DNA of 15,448 nucleotides from Aquimarina sp. (GTDB lineage Bacteria > Bacteroidota > Bacteroidia > Flavobacteriales > Flavobacteriaceae): NCBI GenBank assembly GCA_011524575.1, contig WTKB01000268.1, positions 1 through 15,448 on the forward strand. Reading direction: 5' to 3'. The notes under the pieces were generated by a model. It saw nothing but the letters and a program-made list of their open reading frames with translations, was not told the DNA's origin and did no database searches. The position numbers and the translations under genes were made by a program. Shown piece after piece: positions 2 through 12,346 of this stretch. How positions within the stretch are numbered: the first letter of the stretch is position 1; each line of letters opens with the position of its first letter.

Positions 2-58
2 TTTCATAACGTTTTGACAAAGATAGAGAAATCATTGGGAATTTTAGAGCATGTTTAA
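2..58 (+). CDS. possible 3' end of a rightward gene cut by the window edge
   Basis: One frame is open from base 2 to a TAA at 56-58 and would encode an 18-residue tail ending in LGILEHV. The other two forward frames stop within the first 20 bases. A terminator-like hairpin follows at 81-127, as expected after a rightward gene. The family cannot be recognised from so little. The last codons overlap a sequence that matches the end of the repeat family described below (47-59), so the present stop codon may come from that repeat. It could equally be non-coding DNA; 18 open codons is weak evidence. Confidence 0.3.
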   Translation, partial: FHNVLTKIEKSLGILEHV

Positions 59-59
59 A
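47..59 (+). repeat. lone end of the palindromic repeat family
   Basis: The bases GAGCATGTTTAAA match the 13-base end GAGCTTGTTTAAA of the repeat family at 12 of 13 positions, and they are preceded by TTA, as copy A is. The DNA after it does not resemble either half of the repeat interior, so this is a solo end or remnant rather than a full copy. A chance match is possible in AT-rich DNA. Confidence 0.35.
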
Positions 60-343: not shown

Positions 344-1381
344 TTACAATGGCATATACTTTCCTTTAAATTGCTTTAAGAATCGCACATCATTTTCAAA
401 AAATAAACGAATATCTCCAATTTGATGTAAAAGCATTGCTATACGTTCTACACCTACTCCAAAAGCAAAACCACTATATTCTTTAGGGTCGATATTGCAA
501 TTGGTAAGTACGTTAGGATCTACCATTCCACAACCACCTATTTCGAGCCAACCTGTTCCTTTAGTAATTTTGTAATCGGTTTCGGTTTCTAATCCCCAAT
601 AAATATCAATTTCGGCACTAGGCTCTGTAAATGGAAAGTAAGAAGGGCGTAAACGTATTTTACTTTTACCAAAAAGTTGCTCGGTAAAGTAAAGCAAGGT
701 TTGTTTCAAATCTGAAAAAGAAACGTTCTTATCAATATATAAACCTTCTACTTGGTGGAAAATACAATGGGAGCGTGCCGAAATCGCTTCGTTACGAAAT
801 ACTCTTCCTGGAGAAATGGTTCGAATCGGAGGCTTGTTTTCTTCCATATAACGCACTTGTACCGATGAGGTATGCGTACGTAGTAAAATATCCTCAGGAT
901 TGGTTTGTATAAAAAACGTATCCTGCATATCTCTTGCAGGGTGGTACTCTGGTAAGTTTAAAGCTGTAAAGTTATGCCAATCGTCTTCAACCTCTGGACC
1001 TTCACTTACATTAAAGCCAATACGAGAAAAGATTTCAATAATTTGATTTCTTACAATAGATATAGGATGCCTTGCACCAATTTCTAGGGCTTCACCTGGT
1101 CGTGTTAAATCTCCCCAAGAAGTTTCTTTTCCTGAAGTTACTTTCGTACTCAAACTAGACTTAAGATCATTTACTTTTTGTTCTGCAGTCGATTTCCAAG
1201 TATTTAACACCTTTCCAAATTCCTTTTTTTGGTCGGCAGGTACTTCTTTAAATTTAGCGAAATATTCTTTTAAGGCACCTTTACTTCCTAAGATTTCCAC
1301 TCGAAAGGCTTCTAGTTCTTCTAAGGTGTTGGCATTAAAGGCTTCTGCTTCTTGTATCCGAGCTTTAATTTCTTCAATCAT
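344..1381 (-). CDS. pheS: phenylalanine--tRNA ligase alpha subunit
   Basis: Catalytic subunit of the cytoplasmic alpha2-beta2 phenylalanyl-tRNA synthetase, which charges tRNA-Phe. At 345 residues it is of normal length for the family. Residues 1-90 form the charged, helical N-terminal arm that contacts tRNA. The class II catalytic core follows, with HPARDMQDTFF at 147-157, RTHTSSVQ at 168-175, motif 2 around FRNEAISARSHCIFHQ (195-210), and motif 3 GFAFGVGVERIAM (304-316). The beta subunit gene, pheT, is not in the window, which is common where pheS and pheT are unlinked. The ATG at 1381 is chosen because the conserved N-terminal arm starts there. The HAD gene lies upstream on the same strand, but a repeat copy and about 265 bases separate them, so pheS probably has its own promoter. 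Confidence 0.97.
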   Translation of the reverse strand: MIEEIKARIQEAEAFNANTLEELEAFRVEILGSKGALKEYFAKFKEVPADQKKEFGKVLNTWKSTAEQKVNDLKSSLSTKVTSGKETSWGDLTRPGEALEIGARHPISIVRNQIIEIFSRIGFNVSEGPEVEDDWHNFTALNLPEYHPARDMQDTFFIQTNPEDILLRTHTSSVQVRYMEENKPPIRTISPGRVFRNEAISARSHCIFHQVEGLYIDKNVSFSDLKQTLLYFTEQLFGKSKIRLRPSYFPFTEPSAEIDIYWGLETETDYKITKGTGWLEIGGCGMVDPNVLTNCNIDPKEYSGFAFGVGVERIAMLLHQIGDIRLFFENDVRFLKQFKGKYMPL

Positions 1382-1407
1382 TGTGAAAATGTAAATTTAT
1401 AGAATAA

Positions 1408-1415
1408 CAAATTTA
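1408..1415 (-). promoter_or_regulatory. possible -7 element for pheS
   Basis: Read leftward, the bases are TAAATTTG, an exact match to the Bacteroidota -7 consensus TAnnTTTG, 27 bases upstream of the pheS start codon. No convincing -33 TTG box lies at the expected distance, so the call rests on one short motif in AT-rich DNA. Confidence 0.35.
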
Positions 1416-1424
1416 GTAAAAATT

Positions 1425-1636
1425 GAACGGATCTTAGTTTTTTATATTTAGAGCTTGTTTAAAGGTACTACTTCTTGTAATCCAAAATTTTAAGAACTAG
1501 GATCCCTTTAAAAGGACTTACATATTTCAGGCATGCACATCATTTAAAAGTAACCCAAAAAACCTTACACTTTTGGATTACAGTTTGTATTTAGTTTAAA
1601 CAAGCTCTTATCTCAAAAAGGTTAAGATCCGTGTTC
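1425..1636. repeat. outer inverted repeat surrounding copy A
   Basis: GAACGGATCTTA at 1425-1436 is the reverse complement of the bases at 1623-1636, apart from a 2-base bulge. The sequences just inside are a T run on the left and an A run on the right, which also complement each other. These arms enclose repeat copy A. They may be the two halves of an older hairpin, perhaps the terminator of the HAD gene, into whose loop the repeat was inserted. Confidence 0.5.
1451..1607 (+). repeat. palindromic repeat element, copy A (157 bp)
   Basis: A full copy of the repeat family. The ends GAGCTTGTTTAAA (1451-1463) and TTTAAACAAGCTC (1595-1607) are perfect 13-bp inverted repeats. Further inside, a block around TGTAATCCAAAATTTTAAG (1476-1494) is mirrored by the block before TTTGGATTACAG (1571-1582), so the whole unit can fold into one long hairpin. 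TTA flanks it on both sides (1448-1450 and 1608-1610), consistent with a 3-bp target duplication. It has no coding capacity. It lies between the HAD and pheS genes, both read leftward. The orientation of this copy is taken as the reference. Confidence 0.85.
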
Positions 1637-1646
1637 TTCTATTAGG

Positions 1647-2495
1647 TTATTTATTTTGATAGGCATCAATAACTTTTGCGATAATTTTTTCAACACCAAA
1701 TGCATCATTTGAATCCGTTTCAAATTTTGCAGTTTGCTTAACTTCTGGATGTGCATTTTGCATGGCGTAACTAAAAGAAGCATCTTTTAGCATTTCTAAA
1801 TCATTTTTAAAATCTCCGAAAACCATGGTTTCAGATGGAGATATTCCTAACTTTTTTTGCAATCGATTTATAGCTACTCCTTTATTGGTGCTTACATTAG
1901 CAATATCTAGCCAGTTTTCTCCTGAAACTTTTAATAACCAATTTTTGTAGTTAGTATTTGTTTGCTCTTCAAAATGTTTTTTAAATACAGGGTATAAATA
2001 TTTTTCAGAACTTTCTGGATGGTAAAGAGCAATTTTGAGTAAGGTATCTTCATAATGTTCAACTACCTTAGTAGTAAGCGTATTTACAATAGTAGAAGAT
2101 GGATGGTATTCCCTTAGTTTTTTATCTAGAGTAGGGCTTGTTTTTTCAAAATATGCAGATTTTTTACCACATAATATTAAACAAGAGTTGGGGATTTTTT
2201 TTGCAATTTCAACAATATCATCTGCTTTATATGCAGGGATTCCTTCTGTAGAAAAGTCCTCGCCTTTGTGTTGGGTATAAGCACCATTTTCTGCAACAAT
2301 AGAAATTCTATTTATAATTCCAGGAAGTTTACTAGCAATACCTTCATATTGTCTTCCGCTAGCTGCAACAAATGCTACCTTAAATTTTTCTAGTATTTTA
2401 AACTGTTCTAGAAATAGCTTGCTAACTTCATGTTTAGAGTTGAGTAGTGTACCATCTAAATCACTTACAATAAGTTTTACCTTTGAGAAGTCCAT
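1647..2495 (-). CDS. Cof-type HAD-IIB family hydrolase
   Basis: A predicted cytoplasmic phosphatase of the Cof/YidA group of the haloacid dehalogenase superfamily, whose members typically remove phosphate from sugar phosphates, nucleotides or flavin precursors; the substrate is not predictable here. With the chosen start the protein has 282 residues, typical for the group. Motif I is SDLDGTLL (11-18) with nucleophile D12 and acid/base D14. Motif II is S46 in ASGR, motif III is K205 in NKG, and motif IV is GDFKND (227-232), close to the usual GDGxND. The C2-type cap lies between motifs II and III. An in-frame ATG 13 codons upstream exists (2534), but the alignable N-terminus begins at MDFSKVKLIVSDLDG, so 2495 is preferred. 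The gene is bracketed by two oppositely oriented repeat copies (1451-1607 and 2575-2728). Confidence 0.9.
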   Translation of the reverse strand: MDFSKVKLIVSDLDGTLLNSKHEVSKLFLEQFKILEKFKVAFVAASGRQYEGIASKLPGIINRISIVAENGAYTQHKGEDFSTEGIPAYKADDIVEIAKKIPNSCLILCGKKSAYFEKTSPTLDKKLREYHPSSTIVNTLTTKVVEHYEDTLLKIALYHPESSEKYLYPVFKKHFEEQTNTNYKNWLLKVSGENWLDIANVSTNKGVAINRLQKKLGISPSETMVFGDFKNDLEMLKDASFSYAMQNAHPEVKQTAKFETDSNDAFGVEKIIAKVIDAYQNK

Positions 2496-2539
2496 GTTTT
2501 TTCGGGTTAGATCATTGATTATATTACATAGCATGTCTT

Positions 2540-2554
2540 ATACCAAGTTGGTAT
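2540..2554. repeat. short ATACCAA-TTGGTAT palindrome
   Basis: ATACCAA (2540-2546) and TTGGTAT (2548-2554) are perfect 7-bp arms around one base, located 44-59 bases upstream of the HAD start. A related hexamer pair is at 8919-8932 (ATACC and GGTAT), and single copies occur at 144-150 and 9358-9364. It may be a regulatory site or a repeat remnant; no function can be assigned. Confidence 0.35.
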
Positions 2555-2560
2555 ATTTAA

Positions 2561-2571
2561 GAAACAAGCTC
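2561..2571. repeat. lone repeat end abutting copy B
   Basis: The bases GAAACAAGCTC match the outward end of the repeat family (AAACAAGCTC). They are separated from copy B only by TAA (2572-2574), so two repeat ends face each other and form a near-perfect palindrome at 2562-2584. It may be the remnant of a second element inserted at the same TAA. Confidence 0.55.
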
Positions 2572-2574
2572 TAA

Positions 2575-2728
2575 GAGCTTGTTTAAAGGGAATACAAACT
2601 GTAATTCAGAAGTTTAATATTTTGGTTTACTTTTAAATGACGTGCATATCGAGATGTGTAAGTCCTTTTAAAGTGATCCAAGTTCTTAAAACTTTGGATT
2701 ACAGAAAGTAGTGAGTTTAAATAAGCTC
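2575..2728 (-). repeat. palindromic repeat element, copy B (154 bp)
   Basis: A full copy in the opposite orientation to copy A. The ends are GAGCTTGTTTAAA (2575-2587) and TTTAAATAAGCTC (2716-2728), with one mismatch. The subterminal mirrored blocks around CTGTAATTCAGAAG and the ATTACAG near 2699-2705 are present, as is the central CATATCGAGATGTG palindrome. The left flank is TAA and the right flank is TTA, so no exact 3-bp direct duplication is seen. It lies between the start of the HAD gene and the 3' end of alaS. Confidence 0.85.
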
Positions 2729-2748
2729 TTAGATGATATTTTATTTTA

Positions 2749-2799
2749 CTATTTATAAGTTGCTGTAAAAAAAAATATTTTTCAGCAACTTATAAGTAG
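2749..2799 (-). terminator. putative alaS terminator
   Basis: A 17-base arm at 2749-2765 (ending in AAGTTGCTG) pairs with 2783-2799 (starting CAGCAACTT), with one G-T wobble. The internal A and T runs between the arms can extend the stem. It lies 45 bases beyond the alaS stop codon. The T run lies inside the loop rather than after the stem in the leftward direction, so termination efficiency is uncertain. Confidence 0.6.
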
Positions 2800-2843
2800 T
2801 AAGGTGTTATTTGTGACTATTATAAACAGTGTAATACTAGGTT

Positions 2844-5483
2844 TTAAGCCGATTCAATAAGTGTTTTAGCTGCGTCAAGTGCATTTTGGATTCCAGAAAT
2901 ATTCTTTCCTCCAGCGGTTGCAAAAAAGGCTTGACCACCACCACCACCTTGGATGTGTTTTCCTAGTTCACGTACTATTTTTCCTGCGTTGAGGTCTTTG
3001 TTTTTTGTGAGTTCTTTAGAGATGTAACAACTCAAAATAGCTTTTTCTCCTTGTGTACTTCCAATAAGTATAAATGCATTTTCTTTATTTTTTCCAAGTT
3101 CAAAACAAAGGTCTTTTACGCCTTGCGAGTCAAGATCAATTTTTTGAACTAAGAATAGTGTTTCATTAACTGTTTCAAAGGCATTTGATAATTGTTCTCC
3201 TAATTGAATTGCTTTTTGTTTTGAGAAAGCTTCAATTTGCTTTTTTAGTTCGCTATTTTCTTCTTGTAAACTGATAACCGACTTTAAAGGATCTTTAGTG
3301 TTTTTAAGTTGGTTTTTAAGAGCTAATAGTTCTAATTCTTGCTTATTAAAATAGGCTTTAGCTTCTTTACTTGTAATCGCTTCAATTCTACGAATTCCTG
3401 AAGCTACTGCCGATTCACTTTTGATTTTAAAATGCCAAATCTCCGCAGTATTTTTCACATGTGTTCCTCCACAAAGTTCGATAGAGTTTCCAAAACGAAT
3501 ACTTCGTACCACTTTTCCGTATTTTTCACCAAAGAGTGCTTTAGCTCCTTGTTCAAGAGCATTTTCTATAGTATCGTTTCTGTTTTCTATAAGCTCGATA
3601 CTTTCTGATATACGTTCATTTACAAAGTGTTCTACTTTTTTTAATTCTTCATCAGTAACTTTAGAGAAATGAGAAAAGTCAAAACGTAAATTTTTAGCAC
3701 TTACCATTGATCCTTTTTGCTCTACATGGTTTCCTAATATTGAAACAAGTGCTTCGTGTAATAGATGTGTTGCTGTATGGTTTGCAGTAGCTCCAGTACG
3801 GTTTTCAGCGTTTACTACTGCAGTTATTTTGCCAGAAATGTTTTCTGGTAATTCTTTAGTTACATGAAAAATAAGGTTATTTTCTTTTTTTGTATTTAGT
3901 ACTGCAACTTTTTGTCCTGATGGGCTGTGTAAATAACCAATATCTCCTAGTTGTCCTCCACCTTCTGGGTAAAATGGAGTGGTAGCAAGTATAATTTGGT
4001 ATTGTACGCCATGTTTTTTATGTTCGGTTCTTCTGTACTGAGTGATTGTAGTTTCACAACTTAAGGCATCATAACCTATAAAATCAGTAGTAATATCTTT
4101 TTGAATGATTTGCCAGTCTCCAGTAGCTACCTGTTGTGCTGCTCTTGAACGTTCTTTTTGTTTTTGAAGTTCGGTTTCAAAACCTTTATGATCTAGCTGG
4201 TATCCTTTTTCACTTAGGATAAGCATGGTAAGATCTATTGGGAAACCAAAAGTGTCGTAAAGTTCAAAGGCTTTTTCACCTGAAAGGGTTTTGTTTTCTG
4301 ATTTATTAATAACATCATCTAATCGTATAAGCCCTTTTTCTAGTGTCTTTAAAAAAGAGTGCTCTTCCTCTTTAATTACATTTTCTATCAGCGTTTTTTG
4401 AGTAATAAGTTCTGGGAAAGTTTCTCCCATTTGTTCCGCTAAAGTTGAGGTAAGTTTATAGATAAATGGCTCTTCAGTATTTAAAAAAGTAAATCCATAA
4501 CGAATAGCCCTTCTAAGAATCCTACGAATGACATAACCAGCACCATTATTACTTGGTAATTGTCCGTCAGCTATAGAAAAAGCAACTGCTCTTACGTGAT
4601 CTGCAATTACTCGGATGGCTACGCTTACTTTACCATCAGCGTTTTCAGGTAAGCTTTCTTTGTCGTATGTACTGCCTGTAATTGCTTCAATTTTTGCAAT
4701 TAGAGGTGTGAAAACATCTGTGTCATAGTTAGAACGTACGCCTTGCATTGCCATACATAAACGCTCAAAGCCCATACCTGTATCGATGTGTTGTGCCGCT
4801 AGTTTTTCTAGTGACCCATCAGCTTTACGATTGTATTGCATAAATACCAAATTCCAGATTTCTACAACTTGAGGGTGGTCTTGGTTTACAAGATCTCTTC
4901 CAGAAATTTGTGCCTTTTCCTCTTGAGTACGTAGGTCTATGTGAATTTCTGAGCAAGGACCACAAGGACCTTGGTCTCCCATTTCCCAGAAGTTATCCGC
5001 TTTATTTCCCATTATGATGCGTTCTTTGGGTACGATTTTGCTCCAAAGTTCCATGGCTTCTGTATCTAAAGAGAGTCCATCTTCCGAAGAACCTTCAAAA
5101 ATAGATACATATAAATCCTCAGGGTTTAATCCATAAATAGCTACTAAAAGCTCCCATGCCCATTCGATAGCTTCTTTTTTAAAGTAATCTCCAAAACTCC
5201 AGTTCCCTAGCATTTCAAAAAGTGTATGGTGGTAGGTATCCATACCTACTTCTTCTAAGTCGTTATGTTTTCCACTTACACGTAAACATTTTTGAGTATC
5301 GGCTATACGATTGTATTCTGGTTCTGCATTACCCAAAAAGTACTCTTTAAAAGGATTCATTCCTGCGTTTACAAAAAGCAAACTAGGGTCGTTTTTTAAT
5401 ACCAAAGGTGCAGAAGCAACAATTTGGTGGTTTTTACTTTTAAAAAAATCGAGGAATTTTCTTCTAATTTCTTGAGATTTCAT
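2844..5483 (-). CDS. alaS: alanine--tRNA ligase
   Basis: Cytoplasmic class II synthetase that charges tRNA-Ala and edits mischarged Ser or Gly. The 879-residue length is normal. The N-terminal catalytic domain has motif 1 around [19 protein letters not shown] (24-42), with R68 and H73 nearby and [13 protein letters not shown] at 89-101. The tRNA-recognition helical domain follows to about residue 455. The editing domain carries the metal-binding HTATH at 569-573 (H569, H573) and CGGTH at 671-675 (C671, H675). The C-terminal C-Ala domain ends with the oligomerisation/DHHA1-like glycine run GGGGG (846-850). All signature residues are present, so the enzyme looks intact. The gene is divergent from the M23 peptidase gene across a 147-base spacer. 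Confidence 0.98.
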
Positions 5484-5560
5484 GAGAAATAACTTATTGA
5501 TAGCGTTGATTAATATGTATGTATCTGATTTTCAGTATATTTATTTTGAAATCAAATAAT

Positions 5561-5568
5561 TATATTTG
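5561..5568 (+). promoter_or_regulatory. possible -7 element for the M23-LemA-TPM cluster
   Basis: TATATTTG matches the Bacteroidota -7 consensus TAnnTTTG and would give a leader of about 55 bases before the ATG at 5631. The nearest TTTG upstream ends 12 bases away, closer than usual for a -33 box, so only the -7 element is supported. Confidence 0.35.
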
Positions 5569-5608
5569 TTAAAAAATGAAATGTACTATTTTTTAATGAT
5601 AGTTATTT

Positions 5609-5637
5609 CAAAAATACTATATTTTAATTTATGTCAA
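5609..5637 (-). promoter_or_regulatory. possible alaS promoter overlapping the divergent start codon
   Basis: Read leftward, TTTG at 5637-5634 is followed after 17 bases by TATTTTTG at 5616-5609. Both the sequence and the spacing fit the Bacteroidota -33/-7 promoter pattern. Transcription would start near 5600 and leave an alaS leader of roughly 120 bases. The -33 box lies within the first codons of the divergent peptidase gene (ATG 5631), so the two promoters would overlap and might compete. Confidence 0.4.
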
Positions 5638-6608
5638 AGATTAAATACTATTACGATACAGAGACTTTATCTTATCGTGAAATAGAGCCTTCTATAAAAA
5701 AACGATGGGCAAATGCACTTCTTTGGTTGCTCAGTGTGTTTTGCATGGCAATGCTTTTAATGGTTGTTTACTTAAGTATTCCTCAAATAGAAAGCCCAAA
5801 AGAAAAGAGTTACCGAAGAGAGCTTTCACTTATGCAAGAACAATATAAGTCCCTTAACCAAAAAATTCATTTACAGCAAGAAGTTCTTAAAGAAATTGCA
5901 GACAGAGACAATAATATTTATCGTTTGTATTTTGAGGTTGACCCTATAAGCGAAGAGGAGCGTCTAGCTGGTTTTGGAGGGATAAATAGATATAACCAGT
6001 ACGAAGGTTATGATAATTCCGAACTGATTAAACATACCCACCAGCAAGTAGATCAGATTACGAAACAAATTTCAGTACAGTCAGAATCTCTAGATGAAAT
6101 TGTAGAACTTGCTAAAGAGAAACAAGAATTACTTACTGCAATACCTGCTATACAGCCTGTTAGTAACGAGGATCTTACTCGTATGGCTTCAGGGTATGGG
6201 ATGCGAAATGATCCTTTTACAAAAGCTCGTAAAATGCATAAGGGTATGGACTTCACCTCTCCAAGAGGGACTCCTATCTATGCAACTGGAGATGGGGTTG
6301 TTATTCGAGCAGATAGTCGTTCATCAGGTTATGGGAAACATGTTCGTATCAATCATGGATATGGATATGTAACCTTGTATGCACACATGTATAAATATAA
6401 TGTCCGAAAAGGACAAAAAGTAAAACGAGGTGATGTTATTGGTTTTGTTGGAAGTACAGGCCGTTCACAAGCACCTCATTTACACTATGAAGTCCGTAAG
6501 GATGGTAAACATATAAATCCTGTAAACTTTTATTACGGAAATTTATCAGCGGAAGAATTTGCTATTCTCCTTGAGAAATCCAAACAGGCAAACCAATCTT
6601 TAGACTAA
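5631..6608 (+). CDS. membrane-anchored M23 (LytM-type) peptidase
   Basis: A predicted zinc metallopeptidase or activator acting on peptidoglycan cross-bridges in the periplasm. Residues 1-26 are cytoplasmic and basic at the end, a single membrane helix spans about 27-50, and a coiled-coil stalk covers about 58-95 and 130-170. The LytM domain occupies about 185-300. All zinc ligands and catalytic residues are visible: H203 and D207 in HKGMD, H252 in YAHMY, and H283 and H285 in HLHYE, so it appears catalytically competent rather than a degenerate EnvC/NlpD type. The 325-residue layout resembles the M23 proteins commonly found beside alaS in Flavobacteria. It is the first gene of a compact cluster; only three bases separate its stop from the MerR-like gene. 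Its substrate and division role are inferred from the family. Confidence 0.93.
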   Translation: MSKIKYYYDTETLSYREIEPSIKKRWANALLWLLSVFCMAMLLMVVYLSIPQIESPKEKSYRRELSLMQEQYKSLNQKIHLQQEVLKEIADRDNNIYRLYFEVDPISEEERLAGFGGINRYNQYEGYDNSELIKHTHQQVDQITKQISVQSESLDEIVELAKEKQELLTAIPAIQPVSNEDLTRMASGYGMRNDPFTKARKMHKGMDFTSPRGTPIYATGDGVVIRADSRSSGYGKHVRINHGYGYVTLYAHMYKYNVRKGQKVKRGDVIGFVGSTGRSQAPHLHYEVRKDGKHINPVNFYYGNLSAEEFAILLEKSKQANQSLD

Positions 6609-6611
6609 ACT

Positions 6612-6941
6612 ATGCGTGTAGAACTTTCCGAAAAGCGTTATCATTCAATAGGTGAGGTTGCCGAAGCTTTTGGAGTCAATACTTCTTTAATAAGGTTTTG
6701 GGAAAAAGAATTCTCTCAAATAAAACCTAAAAAGAATAAAAATGGGGTACGTTATTTTAGTAAAAAAGATATTGATGCAGTCAGCTTAATCTATCATTTA
6801 GTTAAAGAGCGTGGTTTTACTTTAGAAGGAGCAAAAGAACATCTCAAAAATCACCCTAAAAAAAATGATCAAAATCTAGATTTGCTTCAGAAATTACAAA
6901 AGATTAAAGCAACTCTAGAAGAATTAAAATCAAATTTATAA
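6612..6941 (+). CDS. small MerR-like transcriptional regulator
   Basis: A 109-residue DNA-binding protein. Residues 9-78 form a MerR-type winged helix: the helix-turn-helix IGEVAEAFGVNTSLIRFWEKEF (13-34) is followed by the wing NGVRYFSKKDIDAV (44-57) and the linker helices LVKERGFTLEGAKEHL. A short charged helix (about 85-109) probably makes the dimer coiled coil. No C-terminal effector domain or metal-binding cysteine is present, so it does not look like a classical metal or drug sensor. The ATG follows the peptidase stop after three bases, and lemA begins 25 bases downstream, so it is likely co-transcribed and may regulate the cluster or unrelated targets. Confidence 0.88.
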   Translation: MRVELSEKRYHSIGEVAEAFGVNTSLIRFWEKEFSQIKPKKNKNGVRYFSKKDIDAVSLIYHLVKERGFTLEGAKEHLKNHPKKNDQNLDLLQKLQKIKATLEELKSNL

Positions 6942-6966
6942 TTTATTTCAATTTTATATCCAAACT

Positions 6967-7557
6967 ATGAAAACATTTTTTAAATGTATTGGTGTGTTAC
7001 TTTTAATGCTTTCTTTAAACTCTTGTGGTTACTATAACAACATGGTTACTTTGAATGAGGATGTAGATGAGGCATGGGGAAATGTACAAACAGCTTATCA
7101 ACGTAGAAATGATCTTATAGGAAACCTTGTGAAAACCGTTCAAGGAGCTGCTGATTTTGAAAAAAGTGCTCTTGTAGATGTAGTTAACGCAAGAGCTAAA
7201 GCGACTTCAATAACTATTGATCCCAGTAATATTACTCCAGAACAACTTGCAAAGTTTAATAAAGTTCAAGGAGGGCTTTCAGGGGCATTAAAAAGTTTAT
7301 TAGTCTCAGTGGAACGTTATCCTGATCTAAAGGCAAATAAAAACTTTTTGAAACTTCAAGACGAATTAACTTCTACTGAAAATCAAATTTTGACTGCTCG
7401 TACGCGTTTCAATGAAGGAGTAAAGCCTTATAATACCTATGTTAAAAAATTTCCAAATAATTTTTTTGCTGGTTGGTTTGGTTTTGATTCTAAACCCTAT
7501 TTTGAAGCTGAAGCTGGGGCAGAAAAGCCCGTAGATGTTAATTTTAACTTCAAGTAA
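6967..7557 (+). CDS. lemA: LemA family lipoprotein
   Basis: A 196-residue helical envelope protein of the LemA family, whose biochemical role is not established. The N-terminus is a lipoprotein signal: a hydrophobic stretch at 8-17 and the lipobox LNSC with acylated C20. No acidic residue follows the cysteine, which under the usual sorting rules suggests the outer membrane. The mature part starts with the family signature: YNNMVTLNEDVDEAWGNVQ (23-41) and YQRRNDLIGNLV (44-55), followed by amphipathic helices with ERYPDLKANKNFLKLQDEL (117-135). The C-terminus carries the usual Phe/Pro-rich segment FPNNFFAGWFGF. Its stop codon is directly followed by the ATG of the first TPM gene, and LemA-TPM pairing is a recurrent arrangement, suggesting a shared membrane function. 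Confidence 0.93.
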   Translation: MKTFFKCIGVLLLMLSLNSCGYYNNMVTLNEDVDEAWGNVQTAYQRRNDLIGNLVKTVQGAADFEKSALVDVVNARAKATSITIDPSNITPEQLAKFNKVQGGLSGALKSLLVSVERYPDLKANKNFLKLQDELTSTENQILTARTRFNEGVKPYNTYVKKFPNNFFAGWFGFDSKPYFEAEAGAEKPVDVNFNFK

Positions 7558-8079
7558 ATGTCTAAAGATTTTAATAATAAAAAAGCCTCTTCCAGTTTGG
7601 TTGAGGCTTTTTTAAATTCTAAGCAAGAAGAACAAGTTGTAGCAGCTATTGTTGCTGCAGAAAAAGAAACTTCAGGAGAAATCCGAGTACATCTAGAAAA
7701 TTTTGATACCAGTTTTATCAAAGAACAATCAGGTGTAGATTTAACTCCTAAAGAGATGGTGTATCAAAGAGCACAACAGGTTTTTGAGATTTTAGAAATG
7801 CAAAATACCATGCAACGTAATGGCGTACTTATTTATGTAGCTGTAAACTTAAGGCAGTTTGTGGTATATGGCGATTATGGTATAAATCAAAAAGTTTCTG
7901 CTGATTTTTGGAGTTCCACCTGTAATGTAATAAGTAAGTATTTTAAAAATAAAGAGTTTTCAAAAGGGCTTATTATGGGGATCTCAGAAATAGGAACGGT
8001 TCTCTCTACCTATTTTCCATATAAAGAGGGGGAAGATATTGATGAATTGGATAACCAAATTTCTAGATTAGATGGATAA
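7558..8079 (+). CDS. TPM domain protein (soluble, short form)
   Basis: A 173-residue protein with one TPM (YgcG/Psb32-like) domain over about residues 23-155. The recognisable core is EKETSGEIRVHLE (35-47), the conserved helix around KEMVYQRAQQVF (65-76), and RNGVLIYVAVNLRQFVVYGDYGIN (87-110). It lacks a signal peptide, membrane helix and glycine-rich tail, so it is either cytoplasmic or exported by an unrecognised route. The ATG follows the LemA stop codon with no spacer, which suggests translational coupling. Its last 8 bases overlap the second TPM gene. A terminator-like hairpin (7579-7613) lies inside codons 8-19. Some TPM proteins bind calcium or act as phosphatases, but neither activity can be asserted here. 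Confidence 0.88.
   Translation: MSKDFNNKKASSSLVEAFLNSKQEEQVVAAIVAAEKETSGEIRVHLENFDTSFIKEQSGVDLTPKEMVYQRAQQVFEILEMQNTMQRNGVLIYVAVNLRQFVVYGDYGINQKVSADFWSSTCNVISKYFKNKEFSKGLIMGISEIGTVLSTYFPYKEGEDIDELDNQISRLDG
7579..7613 (+). terminator. terminator-like hairpin inside the first TPM coding sequence
   Basis: AAAAAAGCCTC at 7579-7589 is perfectly complementary to GAGGCTTTTTT at 7603-7613 around a 13-base loop. It has a GC-containing core stem followed directly by six T residues on the + strand, the form of an intrinsic terminator. It begins 22 bases after the lemA stop codon but sits within the TPM gene. It may be a partial terminator or attenuator that lowers expression of the TPM genes relative to lemA, or a coincidence of codon choice. 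Confidence 0.5.
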
Positions 8080-8881
8080 GCAGCTTTTTAAAACCTATAT
8101 GTTATCTTTTTGGTTGGTATTTTCTATAAGCATATTATCTGCTCAATTTACTATTCCAGAACCTCCAAAACCAAAATTTGGTCGTACTCGTGTTTCGGCT
8201 GTGTATGATTATGCCTCGTTACTTCAAAAAAATCAACGTACGGCTTTAGAAGTAAAATTAAATAGGTATGCTGATACAACCAGTACGCAAATTGTAGTAG
8301 CAACTATTGAAAGTTTAAAAGGAGAGGATATAGGTGTACTTACCCCAAAGTGGGCTCATCAGTGGGGTATTGGAGGTACAGCAAAAAAAGATAATGGAGT
8401 TTTTATACTTCTTTCTAAGAAGGATCGAAAGATATGGATTTCTCCAGGTTATGGTGTAGAACAATATTTAACAGCTGGGCAATTAGGAGCAATTACCAGA
8501 GATTTTATCGTTCCAGAGTTTAAAAAGGGGAGTTATTATTTAGGTTTAGATAAAGGAACATCTGTTATCATGGGGTTATTAAGCGGTACTTTTAGCTTAG
8601 AACCCAGTGCGACAAATGATGATTTTCCTTATGGAGTGCTTTTATTTTTTGGAATTTTAATTTTAGTAATTATTTTTTCTAAAAAGAATGGAGGAAATCA
8701 TCATAACGATAATGACCCGTATAAATCAATTATTTTAAGTAGAAGAGGACGAAGAGGTATGAACGGAGGGTTCTATCCTAGATCTGGTGGTTTTGGTTCA
8801 TCGGGTGGTTTTGGTGGTGGCTTCGAAGGTGGTTTTGGCGGCGGCGGCTTTAGTGGCGGCGGTGCAGGAGGTGATTGGTAG
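8072..8881 (+). CDS. membrane-anchored TPM domain protein (YgcG family)
   Basis: A 269-residue envelope protein. Residues 1-24 are a Sec signal peptide (basic start, hydrophobic core, predicted cleavage after SILSA). The TPM domain spans about 42-172, with VYDYASLL (44-51), the typical TQIVVATI (72-79), DNGVFILLSKKDRKIWISPGYGVE (107-130) and LGAITRDFIVPEFKKG (138-153). A single transmembrane helix lies at about 186-204. It is followed by a basic linker and a glycine-rich tail (231-269) made of FGG-like units ending in AGGDW, as in many YgcG proteins. The start overlaps the previous gene by 8 bases (ATGGATAA), a classic coupling arrangement. A later in-frame ATG at codon 10 would shorten but not destroy the signal peptide. 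Confidence 0.92.
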   Translation: MDKQLFKTYMLSFWLVFSISILSAQFTIPEPPKPKFGRTRVSAVYDYASLLQKNQRTALEVKLNRYADTTSTQIVVATIESLKGEDIGVLTPKWAHQWGIGGTAKKDNGVFILLSKKDRKIWISPGYGVEQYLTAGQLGAITRDFIVPEFKKGSYYLGLDKGTSVIMGLLSGTFSLEPSATNDDFPYGVLLFFGILILVIIFSKKNGGNHHNDNDPYKSIILSRRGRRGMNGGFYPRSGGFGSSGGFGGGFEGGFGGGGFSGGGAGGDW

Positions 8882-8952
8882 CTTTTGTCAATAGTCAAGA
8901 CTTTCTTTTAAATTCGTAATACCAATAGGTATCAATAAAATATTACATAATC

Positions 8953-9306
8953 ATGTCAAGAGATCAAGAGTTAAAGCTAAATTGGGATACCCTTGTAAGT
9001 AATTTGTCTAATCAATTTGCAGATGGGGATACTATAGATTTGGATGCTATTATTTATTTAGTAGGTGTTCAAGAGTTAGGGCTTATGGGTACTAAATTTA
9101 AGAAAGATGAAAAGATCAATCTAATGCATATTGCCATTTGTAGGCTATTAGAGCCTTATGGATATTATACTTTTGATTTTGTAGACGAAGATGGTTGGCC
9201 TCATTATCAAAAAAATGAAGATCTTCCATTTTTGAAAGCGGGAGAGCAAACCATATTGATGAAAGAAGCTTTAGTTGGTTATTTTAAAGCTACAGGATAT
9301 TTATAG
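8953..9306 (+). CDS. conserved-looking protein of unknown function
   Basis: A 117-residue soluble protein with no signal peptide or membrane helix. I do not recognise a domain. It is acidic, predicted mostly helical, and has an aromatic-rich central block, RLLEPYGYYTFDFVDEDGWPHYQ (104 or so residues from the end of the chain inward to about 65-87), which is the most likely conserved core. Codon usage resembles the neighbours, so it is probably a real gene. It begins 71 bases after the TPM gene, so it may belong to the same transcription unit or have its own promoter. It ends just before a strong bidirectional terminator and converges on holB. Confidence 0.75.
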   Translation: MSRDQELKLNWDTLVSNLSNQFADGDTIDLDAIIYLVGVQELGLMGTKFKKDEKINLMHIAICRLLEPYGYYTFDFVDEDGWPHYQKNEDLPFLKAGEQTILMKEALVGYFKATGYL

Positions 9307-9314
9307 TTTTACAG

Positions 9315-9360
9315 CAATTTTGTATTGAAATTACTGTGAAGTAATTTCAATACAAAATTG
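9315..9360. terminator. bidirectional terminator between convergent genes
   Basis: A perfect 21-bp inverted repeat: arms 9315-9335 and 9340-9360 around a 4-base loop. A and T runs lie in both arms, so it can serve both the rightward gene ending at 9306 and leftward holB ending at 9479. Repeat copy C now lies between this hairpin and holB. Confidence 0.8.
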
Positions 9361-9363
9361 GTA

Positions 9364-9479
9364 TTAAGAACTCGGATCACTTTAAAAAGATTTACATATC
9401 TCGATATGTGCATCATTTAATAGTAAACCAATAACGGCAAACTTTTGAATTACAGTTCGTATTCCCTTTAAACAAGCTC
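9364..9479 (+). repeat. palindromic repeat element, copy C (left-truncated, 116 bp)
   Basis: It matches the right two-thirds of copies A and D in the same orientation: TTAAGAACT, GGATCACTTTAAAAAG, the central CATATCTCGATATG palindrome (9404-9417), TTTTGAATTACAG, and the intact end TTTAAACAAGCTC (9467-9479). The left third, including its terminal repeat, is missing; the terminator hairpin at 9315-9360 stands in its place. The last base of the element forms part of the holB stop codon. Confidence 0.8.
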
Positions 9480-10627
9480 TAAGACTCTTTGGTGTGCAAT
9501 AACTTAGTGAGTTGTAAGCATAAATCTGTAAAAATAATTTTACTATTTGCATTACGTTCTAGATGTACTTGTGCTTGTTCTAGAGTTTTAAAAATATTTT
9601 CAATATTACCACTATGTATGAAAGGTGCAAAGTTTTCTAATTTGAAATTTTCTTTATCAGGGGTTTTATACACAAGTTGAGGTACCTTATAGTTTATGAG
9701 AAGACTGTCTCTAAAAGTTTTTGAGCAATACTCTAAAAAATCTTTTTGCATTTCTCTAGGTTTAGTCGAGATATTTTCACTCCATTGTAAAAGTTCTGAA
9801 ATGGTGCTTTTTTGCTTTGCTGCTTTAAAAGCTAATCTTACCCATGTTATAAACCACGTCTCAAAAATATCAGTGCTTTCATGTTTAATTAAATACTTGA
9901 GAGCAGTATTATAATCTCCTTGACTTTGAGAGGCAATTTGCATTGCTGATTGTAATTCAAGTTGGTGTTTATTTTGCAAATATGTGGTCATACTTTCCGT
10001 ATCAATAGGTTTTAAGTTAGTGCTTTGGCATCGTGAACGAATAGTATTGAGTAATTTATTTTGATCGGAAGTAACCAGTAAAAAAATAGTTTTTAAAGGA
10101 GGTTCTTCAATAAGTTTAAGAAGTTTGTTTGAGGCGGAAACATTAAGTTGTTCTGCATTCCATATAAGCATTACTTTATAGCTACCACTATGACTTTTAA
10201 GGCTGAGTTTTTTTGCAATATTTAGGGCTTCTGTTACTCCAATAAGTCCTTGTTTATTTTCAGAACCTATATGCTTACACCAATCTGAGAGTCCACTATA
10301 GGGTTGCTCTTGAATAAATTCTTGCCATTGATTTAAAAACAGATCAGAAGTAGGATTTTTTTTTATTTCTTTTGTTGTAGTAACAGGGTAAACAAAGTGT
10401 AAGTCTGGGTGAAAAACCCAGTTTTGTTTTTCAGGATTTTGTCTTTCAGGTGCTTTGTAGTTTACAAGCATCTTTGCATAAGCTAATGCCATAGGAAGCG
10501 TTCCATAACCAGATGTGCCATTTAAAATTTGTGCATGAGCTACCCTTTGATTTTTATAAGAGGCAATTAAGTAACTACAGATATTTTGATTACCTATAAT
10601 AGATTTAAAGTATGAAGAAGGAGTCAT
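9479..10627 (-). CDS. holB: DNA polymerase III subunit delta prime
   Basis: Clamp-loader subunit that helps load the sliding clamp at replication forks. The 382-residue protein shows the delta-prime pattern: N-terminal FKSIIGNQNICSYLIASYKNQRVAHAQIL (7-35), a degenerate P-loop GTSGYGTLPMALAYAK (37-52) without the GKT lysine, HPDLHFVYPV (73-82), the SASNKLLKLIEEPP block (164-177), and the SRC motif (198-200) used to engage the neighbouring ATPase subunit. The C-terminal helical collar follows. None of the five cysteines (17, 117, 200, 300, 370) falls in residues 45-75, where many homologues carry a four-cysteine zinc module. The TAG stop codon is formed at the junction with repeat copy C. The gene is divergent from pgk. 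Confidence 0.93.
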   Translation of the reverse strand: MTPSSYFKSIIGNQNICSYLIASYKNQRVAHAQILNGTSGYGTLPMALAYAKMLVNYKAPERQNPEKQNWVFHPDLHFVYPVTTTKEIKKNPTSDLFLNQWQEFIQEQPYSGLSDWCKHIGSENKQGLIGVTEALNIAKKLSLKSHSGSYKVMLIWNAEQLNVSASNKLLKLIEEPPLKTIFLLVTSDQNKLLNTIRSRCQSTNLKPIDTESMTTYLQNKHQLELQSAMQIASQSQGDYNTALKYLIKHESTDIFETWFITWVRLAFKAAKQKSTISELLQWSENISTKPREMQKDFLEYCSKTFRDSLLINYKVPQLVYKTPDKENFKLENFAPFIHSGNIENIFKTLEQAQVHLERNANSKIIFTDLCLQLTKLLHTKES

Positions 10628-10658
10628 GATTATAAGAGGGTTAGTATAGTGTTATATA

Positions 10659-10694
10659 TTGTTTTTTTCATGTGAATGATAAAAATTATCTTTG
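10659..10694 (+). promoter_or_regulatory. putative pgk promoter
   Basis: TATCTTTG at 10687-10694 matches the Bacteroidota -7 consensus TAnnTTTG exactly. A TTG followed by a T run starts at 10659, about 25 bases upstream, somewhat far for a -33 box. Transcription would begin around 10700, giving a leader of about 45 bases before the pgk start codon. This is the best forward promoter candidate in the holB-pgk spacer. Confidence 0.5.
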
Positions 10695-10745
10695 CTTATC
10701 TCAAGTAAGTGAAGTCTTGATGAAATATACTAAAAAGACATAGTT

Positions 10746-11933
10746 ATGAAAACAGTAAATGATTTTAATTTTAAAGGCAAAAGAGTATTAATACGAGTAG
10801 ATTTTAATGTGCCTTTAAATGCTGAATTTAAAGTTACAGATGCCACACGTATTCAGGCTGCTAAAAACACTATTATAAAAGTGTTAGAAGGTGGTGGTAG
10901 TGTGATTTTAATGTCGCACCTTGGAAGACCAAAAGGAAAAGATCAATCACTTTCTTTATCACATATCACCGAGAAAGTACAAGATATTTTAGGAGTTCAA
11001 GTTAAATTTGTACAAGATTGTATCGGTCAGGAAGTACAACAAGCTTCTGCAGATCTTAAGGCTGGAGAGATTTTATTACTAGAAAATTTAAGGTTTTATA
11101 AAGAAGAAACGGCAGGAGATGTTGAATTTGCGAAACAATTAGCAAGTATTGCAGATTTTTATATAAATGATGCTTTTGGAACGGCACATCGTGCACATGC
11201 TTCGACAGCTATTATTGCACAATTTTTTAAAGAAACGAAGTGCTTCGGTTCTTTATTAGCTAAAGAAATTGAAAGCATTGATAAGGTACTTACTTCTGGT
11301 CAAAAGCCAATTACAGCTGTATTAGGTGGTGCTAAAGTTTCTTCTAAGATTACAATTATTGAAAATATCTTGGATAAAGTCGATCATTTAATCATTGGAG
11401 GTGGTATGAGTTTTACCTTCATAAAAGCTCAAGGAGGTCAGATTGGAAACTCCATTTGTGAGGATGATAAACAAGAATTAGCTTTAGAAATTCTAAAAAA
11501 AGCAGCTGAAAAAGGCGTAAAGATTCATTTACCTGTTGATGTTATTGCTGCTGATGATTTTAGTAATGATGCCAATACGCAACAAGTGGCTATAAATGCT
11601 ATTCCAGAAGGATGGGAAGGTGTAGATGCTGGTGAAGCTTCAAGATTAATTTTTGATAAAGTAATTAAAGATTCTCAAACAATTCTTTGGAATGGTCCAT
11701 TAGGTGTTTTTGAAATGGAGTCTTTTGCTAAGGGTACTATTGCACTTGGTAATTCTATTGCAGAGGCAACTAAGAATGGTGCTTTTTCTCTTGTAGGTGG
11801 AGGTGATTCTGTTGCTGCGGTTAAAGAATTTGGTTTTGAAAATAGTGTAAGTTATGTTTCTACAGGTGGTGGAGCTATGCTTGAAAGTTTAGAGGGAAAA
11901 GTTCTTCCTGGAATTGATGCTATTTTAAACTAA
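10746..11933 (+). CDS. pgk: phosphoglycerate kinase
   Basis: Cytoplasmic glycolytic enzyme that transfers phosphate between 1,3-bisphosphoglycerate and ADP. Its 395 residues are the normal length. The N-terminal domain has the signature [12 protein letters not shown] (12-23), MSHLGRPKG (56-64) and the substrate-binding [10 protein letters not shown] (112-121). The nucleotide-binding C-terminal domain has [10 protein letters not shown] (192-201), [11 protein letters not shown] (313-323), GGGDSVAAV (351-359) and STGGGAMLE (372-380). All key residues are present. The gene appears monocistronic: it is preceded by a -7 element, and followed by repeat copy D immediately after the stop codon and then a strong terminator. 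Confidence 0.98.
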
Positions 11934-12087
11934 GACCTTGTTTAAACTCGCTACTTTCTGTAATTCAAAACTTTATGAACTTGGATCACTTTAAAAAGAT
12001 TTATATATCTCGATATACGCATCATTTAAAAGTAAACCAAAACCTTAAACTTTTGAATTACAGTTTGTATTCAGTCTAAACAATCTC
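11934..12087 (+). repeat. palindromic repeat element, copy D (154 bp)
   Basis: A full copy in the same orientation as A, with more decayed ends (GACCTTGTTTAAA on the left, TCTAAACAATCTC on the right). The interior is well conserved: CTTTCTGTAATTCAAAAC, GAACTTGGATCACTTTAAAA, the central ATATCTCGATAT palindrome and ACTTTTGAATTACAG. TAA flanks it on both sides (11931-11933 and 12088-12090), and the left TAA is the pgk stop codon. It would be transcribed as part of the pgk 3' untranslated region before the terminator. Confidence 0.82.
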
Positions 12088-12097
12088 TAACTCATAG

Positions 12098-12110
12098 AGT
12101 TTGTTTAAAC
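12098..12110 (+). repeat. lone repeat end after copy D
   Basis: GAGTTTGTTTAAA (12098-12110 region) matches the 13-base repeat end with one mismatch, starting 10 bases after the end of copy D. The DNA that follows is the pgk terminator rather than repeat interior, so it is a solo end or a remnant of a second, adjacent insertion. Confidence 0.45.
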
Positions 12111-12113
12111 TAG

Positions 12114-12169
12114 ATATATAATAAAAAACGTTGAAAATAGTAGTATTTTCAACGTTTTTTATTATATAT
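12114..12169 (+). terminator. pgk terminator, 26-bp perfect stem
   Basis: The arms 12114-12139 and 12144-12169 are perfectly complementary over 26 bases around the loop GTAG. The core AAAACGTTGAAAATA on the left is followed by a T run on the right arm (after CAACG). It lies 180 bases past the pgk stop codon, with copy D and a lone repeat end in between, consistent with later insertion of the repeats. Confidence 0.85.
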
Positions 12170-12346
12170 GGCTTATATTTTAAAGTTGATGTGATTTATT
12201 ACAGTAATTTCAAAGAAGAATTAGTATTATAGTAGTAATTTGTACTCTTTTTAGAGTTAATTTGTAATATATGATTTATCAATGCAAATTTTGAGTTGAT
12301 AAATTGATTAATTCTTAATAATAATTTATTGAGTTTGAGGTACCCT
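12170..12346. other. AT-rich leader region of the transglycosylase gene
   Basis: A non-coding spacer between the pgk terminator and the next start codon. It must carry the promoter, but no exact TAnnTTTG element is seen; two near-matches (TAATTTG, one base short) occur around 12237 and 12259. A 9-bp hairpin can form between 12274-12282 and 12296-12304 (ATTTATCAA with TTGATAAAT), possibly in the mRNA leader. Nothing else is recognisable. Confidence 0.4.

Follow-up and report, generated by a model that had tools for sequence, protein, structure and literature searches.

Palindromic MITEs of Aquimarina and their probable helper, an IS5-family transposase

Four palindromic sequences lie between the genes of a 15,448-nucleotide contig from Aquimarina sp. 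(the window, i.e., the whole stretch of DNA that was analyzed). Their recurrence raises a question: are these structures that the host keeps at each site, or copies of something that moves, and if they move, by what means? The repeats are a palindromic MITE family of approximately 156 bp, with inverted ends, no coding capacity, and a 3-bp TNA target-site duplication (TSD). We consider it very probable that they are moved in trans by a transposase of the IS5 family (NF033580, DUF4096-type). Read as type II MITEs served by an IS5-type helper, the repeats are accounted for in their ends, duplications, spread, and decay.

Repeat copies in the window and the source genome

The original prediction, made from the sequence of the window, described four intergenic copies. 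All four are present between genes at the coordinates it gave, but three solo ends (47-59, 2560-2571, and 12097-12109) had been missed. The elements of the window are as follows.

47..59, plus strand: solo end GAGCATGTTTAAA, a variant also found on the insertion sequence (IS) of congener G003
1451..1607, plus strand: full copy 1, flanked by TTA on the left (1448-1450) and TTA on the right (1608-1610)
2560..2571, minus strand: solo end, AGAAACAAGCTC as read on the plus strand, adjoining copy 2
2575..2728, minus strand: full copy 2, inverted, with unequal flanks (TAA at 2572-2574, TTA at 2729-2731)
9308..9367, no strand: near-perfect hairpin outside the repeat family, located where copy 3 would have its left arm
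9364..9479, plus strand: copy 3, which lacks the left arm; right flank TAA (9480-9482)
11934..12087, plus strand: full copy 4, flanked by TAA on the left (11931-11933) and TAA on the right (12088-12090)
12097..12109, plus strand: solo end GAGTTTGTTTAAA, directly past copy 4

The target of copy 4 is the TAA stop codon (11931-11933) of pgk (gene 10746-11933). Copy 2 has an HAD-type gene on one side and alaS on the other, a neighborhood absent from the relatives examined, and the junction of copy 3 is spanned by the TAG stop of a minus-strand gene (9479-10627). Among the gene names used for the window, HAD, M23, SLT/LysM, and DUF4837 came from searches; pheS, alaS, merR, lemA, TPM, holB, and pgk were read off the translations. 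Of the first eight listed relatives of the M23 peptidase in the window, seven are from Aquimarina (71–73% identity) and one is from elsewhere in the Flavobacteriaceae (67%), which points to Aquimarina as the genus. Three of the four copies adjoin long near-perfect hairpins (2746-2802, 9308-9367, and 12114-12169), with arms of 25–28 bases and folding z-scores of −7.6 to −11.4. These hairpins are terminator-like and unrelated to the repeat family. An Rfam search of the window at E ≤ 1 yielded nine matches, all under the gathering scores: eight fell on the adjoining hairpins and one at 270-340, and no family matched the repeat bodies.

The inverted ends of the element are GAGCTTGTTTAAA. The 13-bp ends, the mirrored CTGTAATTCAAAA blocks, and the central ATATCTCGATAT that had been proposed were all found in the copies; with point changes, the 13-bp ends occur in every aligned copy save at the left end of copy 3. 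Including the outer A and T, the element measured 156–159 bp in 30 of 31 cases from sampled stretches and 151 bp in the other, in a count limited to near-full-size elements with both ends paired. Aligning 32 copies gave a 156-bp consensus that, in register, shares 77% identity with its reverse complement. It has at least one stop in each of the six frames (one of which is open for 48 codons), in agreement with the proposed lack of coding capacity.

The copies proved to be neither confined to the window nor unrelated outside their end motifs: they align as one family, and a 20-base core (≤ 3 mismatches) occurs at 175 places (91 + 84) in the source genome, compared with none for the reversed-pattern control. 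A 16-base end (≤ 1 mismatch) occurs at 714 places (347 + 367; control 0). This assembly comprises 2,093,196 bases in 373 contigs and is 89% complete; a direct DNA search of it scored 40 of 380 candidates. At 2.09 Mb, the genome is small for Aquimarina, as congeners that are at least 89% complete have 3.5–7.0 Mb. A profile search of 60 contigs (273,102 bases) gave 30 matches, eight of them full, covering 1.0% of the bases. This set took the 74 contigs whose numbers are divisible by five and dropped 14 of them; the resulting density is biased low, since the core had previously been located in at least 12 of the 14 omitted. Twenty contigs selected mainly for their matches, together with the window, contained 55 profile matches, 27 of them full. 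Ten of the 30 matches in the 60 contigs touch a contig end, and an element end lies within 160 bp of 17 of 120 contig ends, as against 82 of 4000 interior windows. Thus, assembly breaks conceal copies. In the open literature listings that were searched, no title or abstract describes the family; it is a new family, and its kind is already known.

Target sites and a candidate helper

Target duplication was assessed with 65 full elements that have distinct flanks, taken from stretches fetched from the source genome. TNA stands on both sides of 59 of them, and the triplets are identical in 43. The 22 non-identical cases comprise 16 reverse-complementary triplets (12 TTA/TAA and four TAA/TTA) and six others; either exchange between copies or assembly error would explain the reverse-complementary ones. 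Full copies avoid genes: in the sampled contigs, of which approximately 77% is covered by ORFs of at least 80 aa, none of 35 full matches lies inside such an ORF, and two share a single base with the end of one. The element inserts at TNA and duplicates that triplet; as TAA also serves as a stop codon, an insertion can fall on the stop of a gene without harming it.

A comparison of loci with and without the element had been proposed as a check, and congeners supplied such a pair. Genome G020 has a TAA without an element; in G027 (contig C4), the element stands between TAA and TAA:

G020, empty: TTATAGTT-TAA-GCGATTCC
G027, filled: TTATAGTT-TAA-(element)-TAA-GCAATTCC

The flanks in G027 match G020 at 93% and 92%, and in G020 they are contiguous, overlapping by the target. 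By comparison of the two genomes, this pair documents both insertion and duplication of the target, TAA. A second G027 copy is 99% identical to a copy found in G020, but it is located in unrelated flanks. Nested insertions were also considered as a source of empty sites: 177 elements were excised in silico and their rejoined flanks used for a search, and the sole match, having non-TNA flanks, was judged to be an artifact.

Three of the four window copies are situated at gene junctions absent from the relatives examined (pheS/HAD, HAD/alaS, and a 117-aa gene/holB). Conserved blocks within 1381-12329 are alaS-to-TPM2 and holB-pgk-mltD-DUF4837. There is thus a hint that the element may have driven rearrangement of gene order in the window: the novel junctions at three copies and the unequal TSDs at copy 2 speak for it, while the equal TSDs at the novel junction of copy 1, the position of copy 4 in a conserved junction, and the failure to find a homologue of the 117-aa gene in any relative stretch speak against it.

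The original prediction also called for a full-length IS with the same ends, and IS5-family elements with ends of the same kind were found in two congeners. G003 harbors nine identical 884-bp copies, each with GAGCATGTTTAAA at its ends and the same TNA triplet on both sides. G010 has one intact 884-bp IS (74% identical to that of G003; ends GAGTATGTTTAAAAA; TSD TAA) and additional broken or cut-off copies. The transposases of both scored above the NF033580 (IS5 family) cut-off. G010 is also repeat-rich (99 end matches), and its IS end agrees with the right end of its repeat at 15 of 15 bases and with the left end at 13 of 15. The ends of the source repeat match those of the G010 IS at 11 of 15 bases and those of the G003 IS at 12–14 of 15. 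By these comparisons, a putative autonomous partner with matching ends exists in the genus. The repeat and the IS thus resemble one another in their ends and in TNA duplication, but the IS is 884 bp long, has a transposase gene, and shows no likeness past approximately 15 bp: similarity extends over the terminal 13–15 bases (best E of 2e-4 in G010 and G024, 0.05 for the source consensus), and interior matches are of 8–12 bases only, at E ≥ 0.05. Given that the likeness is confined to the ends, the repeat is best classed as a type II MITE with its own long-lived palindromic body; a type I MITE (an internally deleted IS) was rejected because the interior is unlike the IS. The helper transposase would recognize ends of the form GAG(C/T)(T/A)TGTTTAAA.

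Among 37 genomes of the genus, strong matches to the transposase (80–100% identity) were limited to G003 and G010; G015 and G019 had weak domain matches. The search found no match in the repeat carriers G024, G020, G027, G030, and G001, and in the source genome neither a DUF4096 match nor a match to the G010 transposase. As no such transposase was found in the source genome, we infer the helper, and with it the identity of the moving transposase. The absence itself carries little weight, since the assembly is 89% complete and breaks at repeats. Repeat and IS occur together only in G010 among the 37 genomes; G003 has the IS and no repeat match among 15 candidates scored. The single PF01609 match in the source genome (locus L088) was rejected as a helper, for it has an internal TAG stop and no matching ends around it. 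This gene adjoins shortened copies of the repeat.

The palindromic body across lineages

Full-length relatives of the repeat were found in G010, G024, G027, G020, G030, and G001. Their consensus sequences are 67–73% identical to that of the source and 66–99% to one another, and the median divergence of copies from their own consensus is 2.5% in G010 (15 copies) and 1.3% in G024 (five copies). G030 and G001 have the element at the same site, with flanks 93% identical over 3 kb. A covariance-model search of 199 genomes of the Flavobacteriaceae detected the repeat in at least six, the source genome included; this count is a lower bound because 15 candidates were scored per genome. One of the 27 alignment rows in the model was in the wrong orientation. 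A single degenerate 157-bp relative was observed in G077 by this search.

The structure was examined in an alignment of 27 copies chosen from 95 (10 from the source, 17 from others), with 61 pairs defined on one source copy. Pairs formed in 87.6% of cells, as against 79.2% in shuffles. Both sides had changed in 163 cells, compared with 69.3 ± 8.5 in shuffles (none of 500 reached the observed value), with the caveat that shared descent inflates such cell counts; sliding the partner by 1–3 columns gave at most 35. Columns 60/106 read A-U, C-G, or G-C in 27 of 27 copies. Two of five covariation measures were not above shuffles: pairs changed on both sides (22 vs. 19.4; reached by 52 of 500 shuffles) and pair types (48 vs. 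48.9). By this alignment, the arms have changed in pairs between lineages, with the whole-length palindrome kept by compensatory changes.

The suggestion that a full copy folds almost end to end needs correcting in that the fold is strand-dependent: on the plus strand, z was −6.5 for copy 4 and −7.1 for copy 2 trimmed to 145 bases, but −0.8 for copy 1 trimmed to 141 bases; for copy 3 it was −1.1. The original prediction had further offered a choice between a selected structure and recent spread. Spread in the source genome is not recent, as 69 copies there stand at a median distance of 7.1% from their consensus. As for structure, most single changes in paired source columns ignore pairing (the distinct events comprise 36 G-T, 43 A-C, and 88 of other kinds), but between lineages paired changes keep the palindrome. 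The structure thus seems to be preserved in the lineages that move, and not in every copy where it resides.

Our preferred guess for why the body stays palindromic is that this aids in joining the ends: folding would bring together two ends that are too close for easy bending of the DNA. A bolder version, in which a folded single strand or cruciform (formed better by the strand opposite copy 4) is needed for mobility and the family is an independent, structure-dependent parasite lineage throughout the genus, is conceivable but doubtful. Any role of the element beyond mobility is hypothetical.

The main rival to this guess holds that the arms are alike through mutation, with template switching copying one arm onto the other and no selection involved. 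Palindromes are known substrates of template switching, which would yield paired changes between lineages without function, and paired variants occur among the source copies as well. However, across the consensus sequences of the lineages, the left arm keeps YTRCTTCYTG and the right arm, read inward, ATRNRAAYTG; arm copying should erase such a difference. We accordingly regard template switching as unlikely.

Less probable still is that the host preserves the element site by site as a structured RNA or a hairpin with a regulatory role, such as a terminator, an mRNA stabilizer, or an sRNA. The paired changes between lineages are compatible with it, and one strand does fold better: in 67 of 69 full source copies, the strand opposite copy 4 is the more stable (medians of −57.6 vs. 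−42.6 kcal/mol), and the same strand is better by median in all six other lineages, although in G024 by only 0.8 kcal/mol. In addition, A-C mismatches on the copy-4 strand, which are G-U on the opposite one, outnumber G-T in every one of the six consensus sequences (by 5 to 1 in that of the source), and 51 of 62 double-changed cells in the source genome keep a Watson-Crick pair, albeit with 37 of them at positions 15, 16, and 72, a pattern that looks like subfamilies. Against such a role, the single changes tallied above indicate that pairing in resident copies is unprotected and that no strand is clearly favored; the excess of A-C over G-T cells in source copies (122 to 85) compares with the approximately 10 to 6 predicted from composition alone. 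An apparent sign of strand-specific RNA selection (300 A-C vs. 54 G-T cells) came from pairs chosen by folding one strand; the claim was dropped because that choice was biased and an unbiased register gave the 43 to 36 events. Placement argues in the same direction. Of 27 full copies with both neighbors known, nine lie between divergent genes and three between convergent ones, and orientation shows no clear preference (13 same and 10 opposite at gene 3′ ends; nine and 15 at 5′ ends), on which grounds a terminator role was rejected. Finally, no Rfam family corresponds to the repeat.

Collapse to a 22-bp scar

Shortened forms with element ends recur in the sampled stretches, at 22 bp (10 cases), 33 bp (two), 49–53 bp (10), 64, 70, 84 (two), 96, and 116 bp. 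The 22-mer is both ends overlapped on GTTTAAAC. The two halves of the consensus share no longer direct repeat than this 8-bp sequence (positions 8 and 142), and the 22-mer is the product expected from a deletion between its two occurrences. Since GTTTAAAC equals its reverse complement, the inverted ends double as an 8-bp direct repeat at the base of the hairpin. The junctions of the 10 22-mers fit: their ambiguity is eight bases in eight, 10 in one, and zero in one, whereas the other 18 short forms range from 0 to 7 (mean 2.3), random junctions average 0.9, and only 0.04% of the latter share eight bases or more. Deletion across the repeat would thus remove the body and leave the scar between the original TNA copies, presumably by slippage or through microhomology.

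Across the source genome, the 22-mer occurs at 44 places (≤ 3 mismatches), 12 of them perfect, and it was found in five of 36 other genomes of the genus at one or two places each (controls 0). Among all 44, TNA flanks 36 on both sides; 18 have identical triplets and 12 reverse-complementary ones.

One orthologous site displays three states: it is empty in G032, holds the full element between TAAs in G030 and G001, and carries the 22-bp scar between the same TAAs in G027. The flanks are 78% identical in G032, and those of G027 are 97% identical to G030. Here, too, the TAA terminates an open frame (403 codons in G027; 213 in G032, where it is cut by the end of the locus). That G030 and G001, the latter more distant, both have the element places its arrival before the collapse. 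This alignment of states documents collapse as well as insertion at a single locus. That the 22-mers are independent protein-binding sites rather than remnants is very improbable: 12 of 44 are perfect, in contrast to full copies with their median of 7% off the consensus, and identical TSDs number only 18 of 44 with 12 reverse-complementary pairs, but the flanking TNA in 36 of 44, the rarity of the 22-mer in congeners, and the scar in G027 exactly at the full-element site of G030 and G001 all favor remnants.

Of the two identities originally suggested for the family, MITE stands, given the ends, the TNA duplications, the empty site, and the IS5-family partner in congeners; ERIC does not. ERIC is an intergenic imperfect palindrome that duplicates TA. 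It resembles the Aquimarina repeat as a similar-sized imperfect palindrome between genes and, compared by description only, differs in host group and duplication; the 3-bp TNA here, along with the lack of an Rfam match to the repeat bodies at E ≤ 1, leaves that identity unsupported. REPINs depend on RAYT transposases. Described as palindromic, non-autonomous repeats of bacterial genomes (PMC3116915), they are like the present repeat in those two respects. Bacterial type II MITEs are characterized as shorter than 500 bp, with inverted ends, an intergenic location, and a stable stem-loop; their direct repeats fade with age, their IS likeness is confined to the ends, and shortened copies are known (Chunjie, QMITE2) (PMC10969869). 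The Aquimarina family is like them, as so described, in size, ends, fading repeats, location, stem-loop, end-only IS likeness, and shortened copies; it departs from that description in two points: compensatory changes keep the body palindromic from one species of the genus to the next, and there is a fixed 22-bp end product, which the self-complementarity of the ends dictates. The QMITE1 and QMITE2 elements of Coxiella burnetii likewise number tens of copies, with QMITE2 at 150–190 bp, and have small derivatives (PMC5896051). By description, the direct repeats of QMITE2 are 7–11 nt and varied, as opposed to the 3-bp TNA in Aquimarina.

One bacterial MITE can thus be traced from empty site through insertion to collapse at a single orthologous locus, the form of its scar being predictable from the sequence of its ends. 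The family also offers a direct way to test why palindromes are so common among bacterial MITEs, an old question. In addition, the source genome, small by the standards of Aquimarina, bears a heavy load of such elements, with no helper found in it. An unlike palindromic, MITE-like family of 99–153 bp, with ends near AGAGGCTGTCTAAAAAG, was observed in three other genera (genomes G143, G182, and G232; loci L419, L420, L421, and L423-L426). In G153 (L422), from another genus, a 163-bp element has the same ends as the Aquimarina repeat around an unrelated interior.
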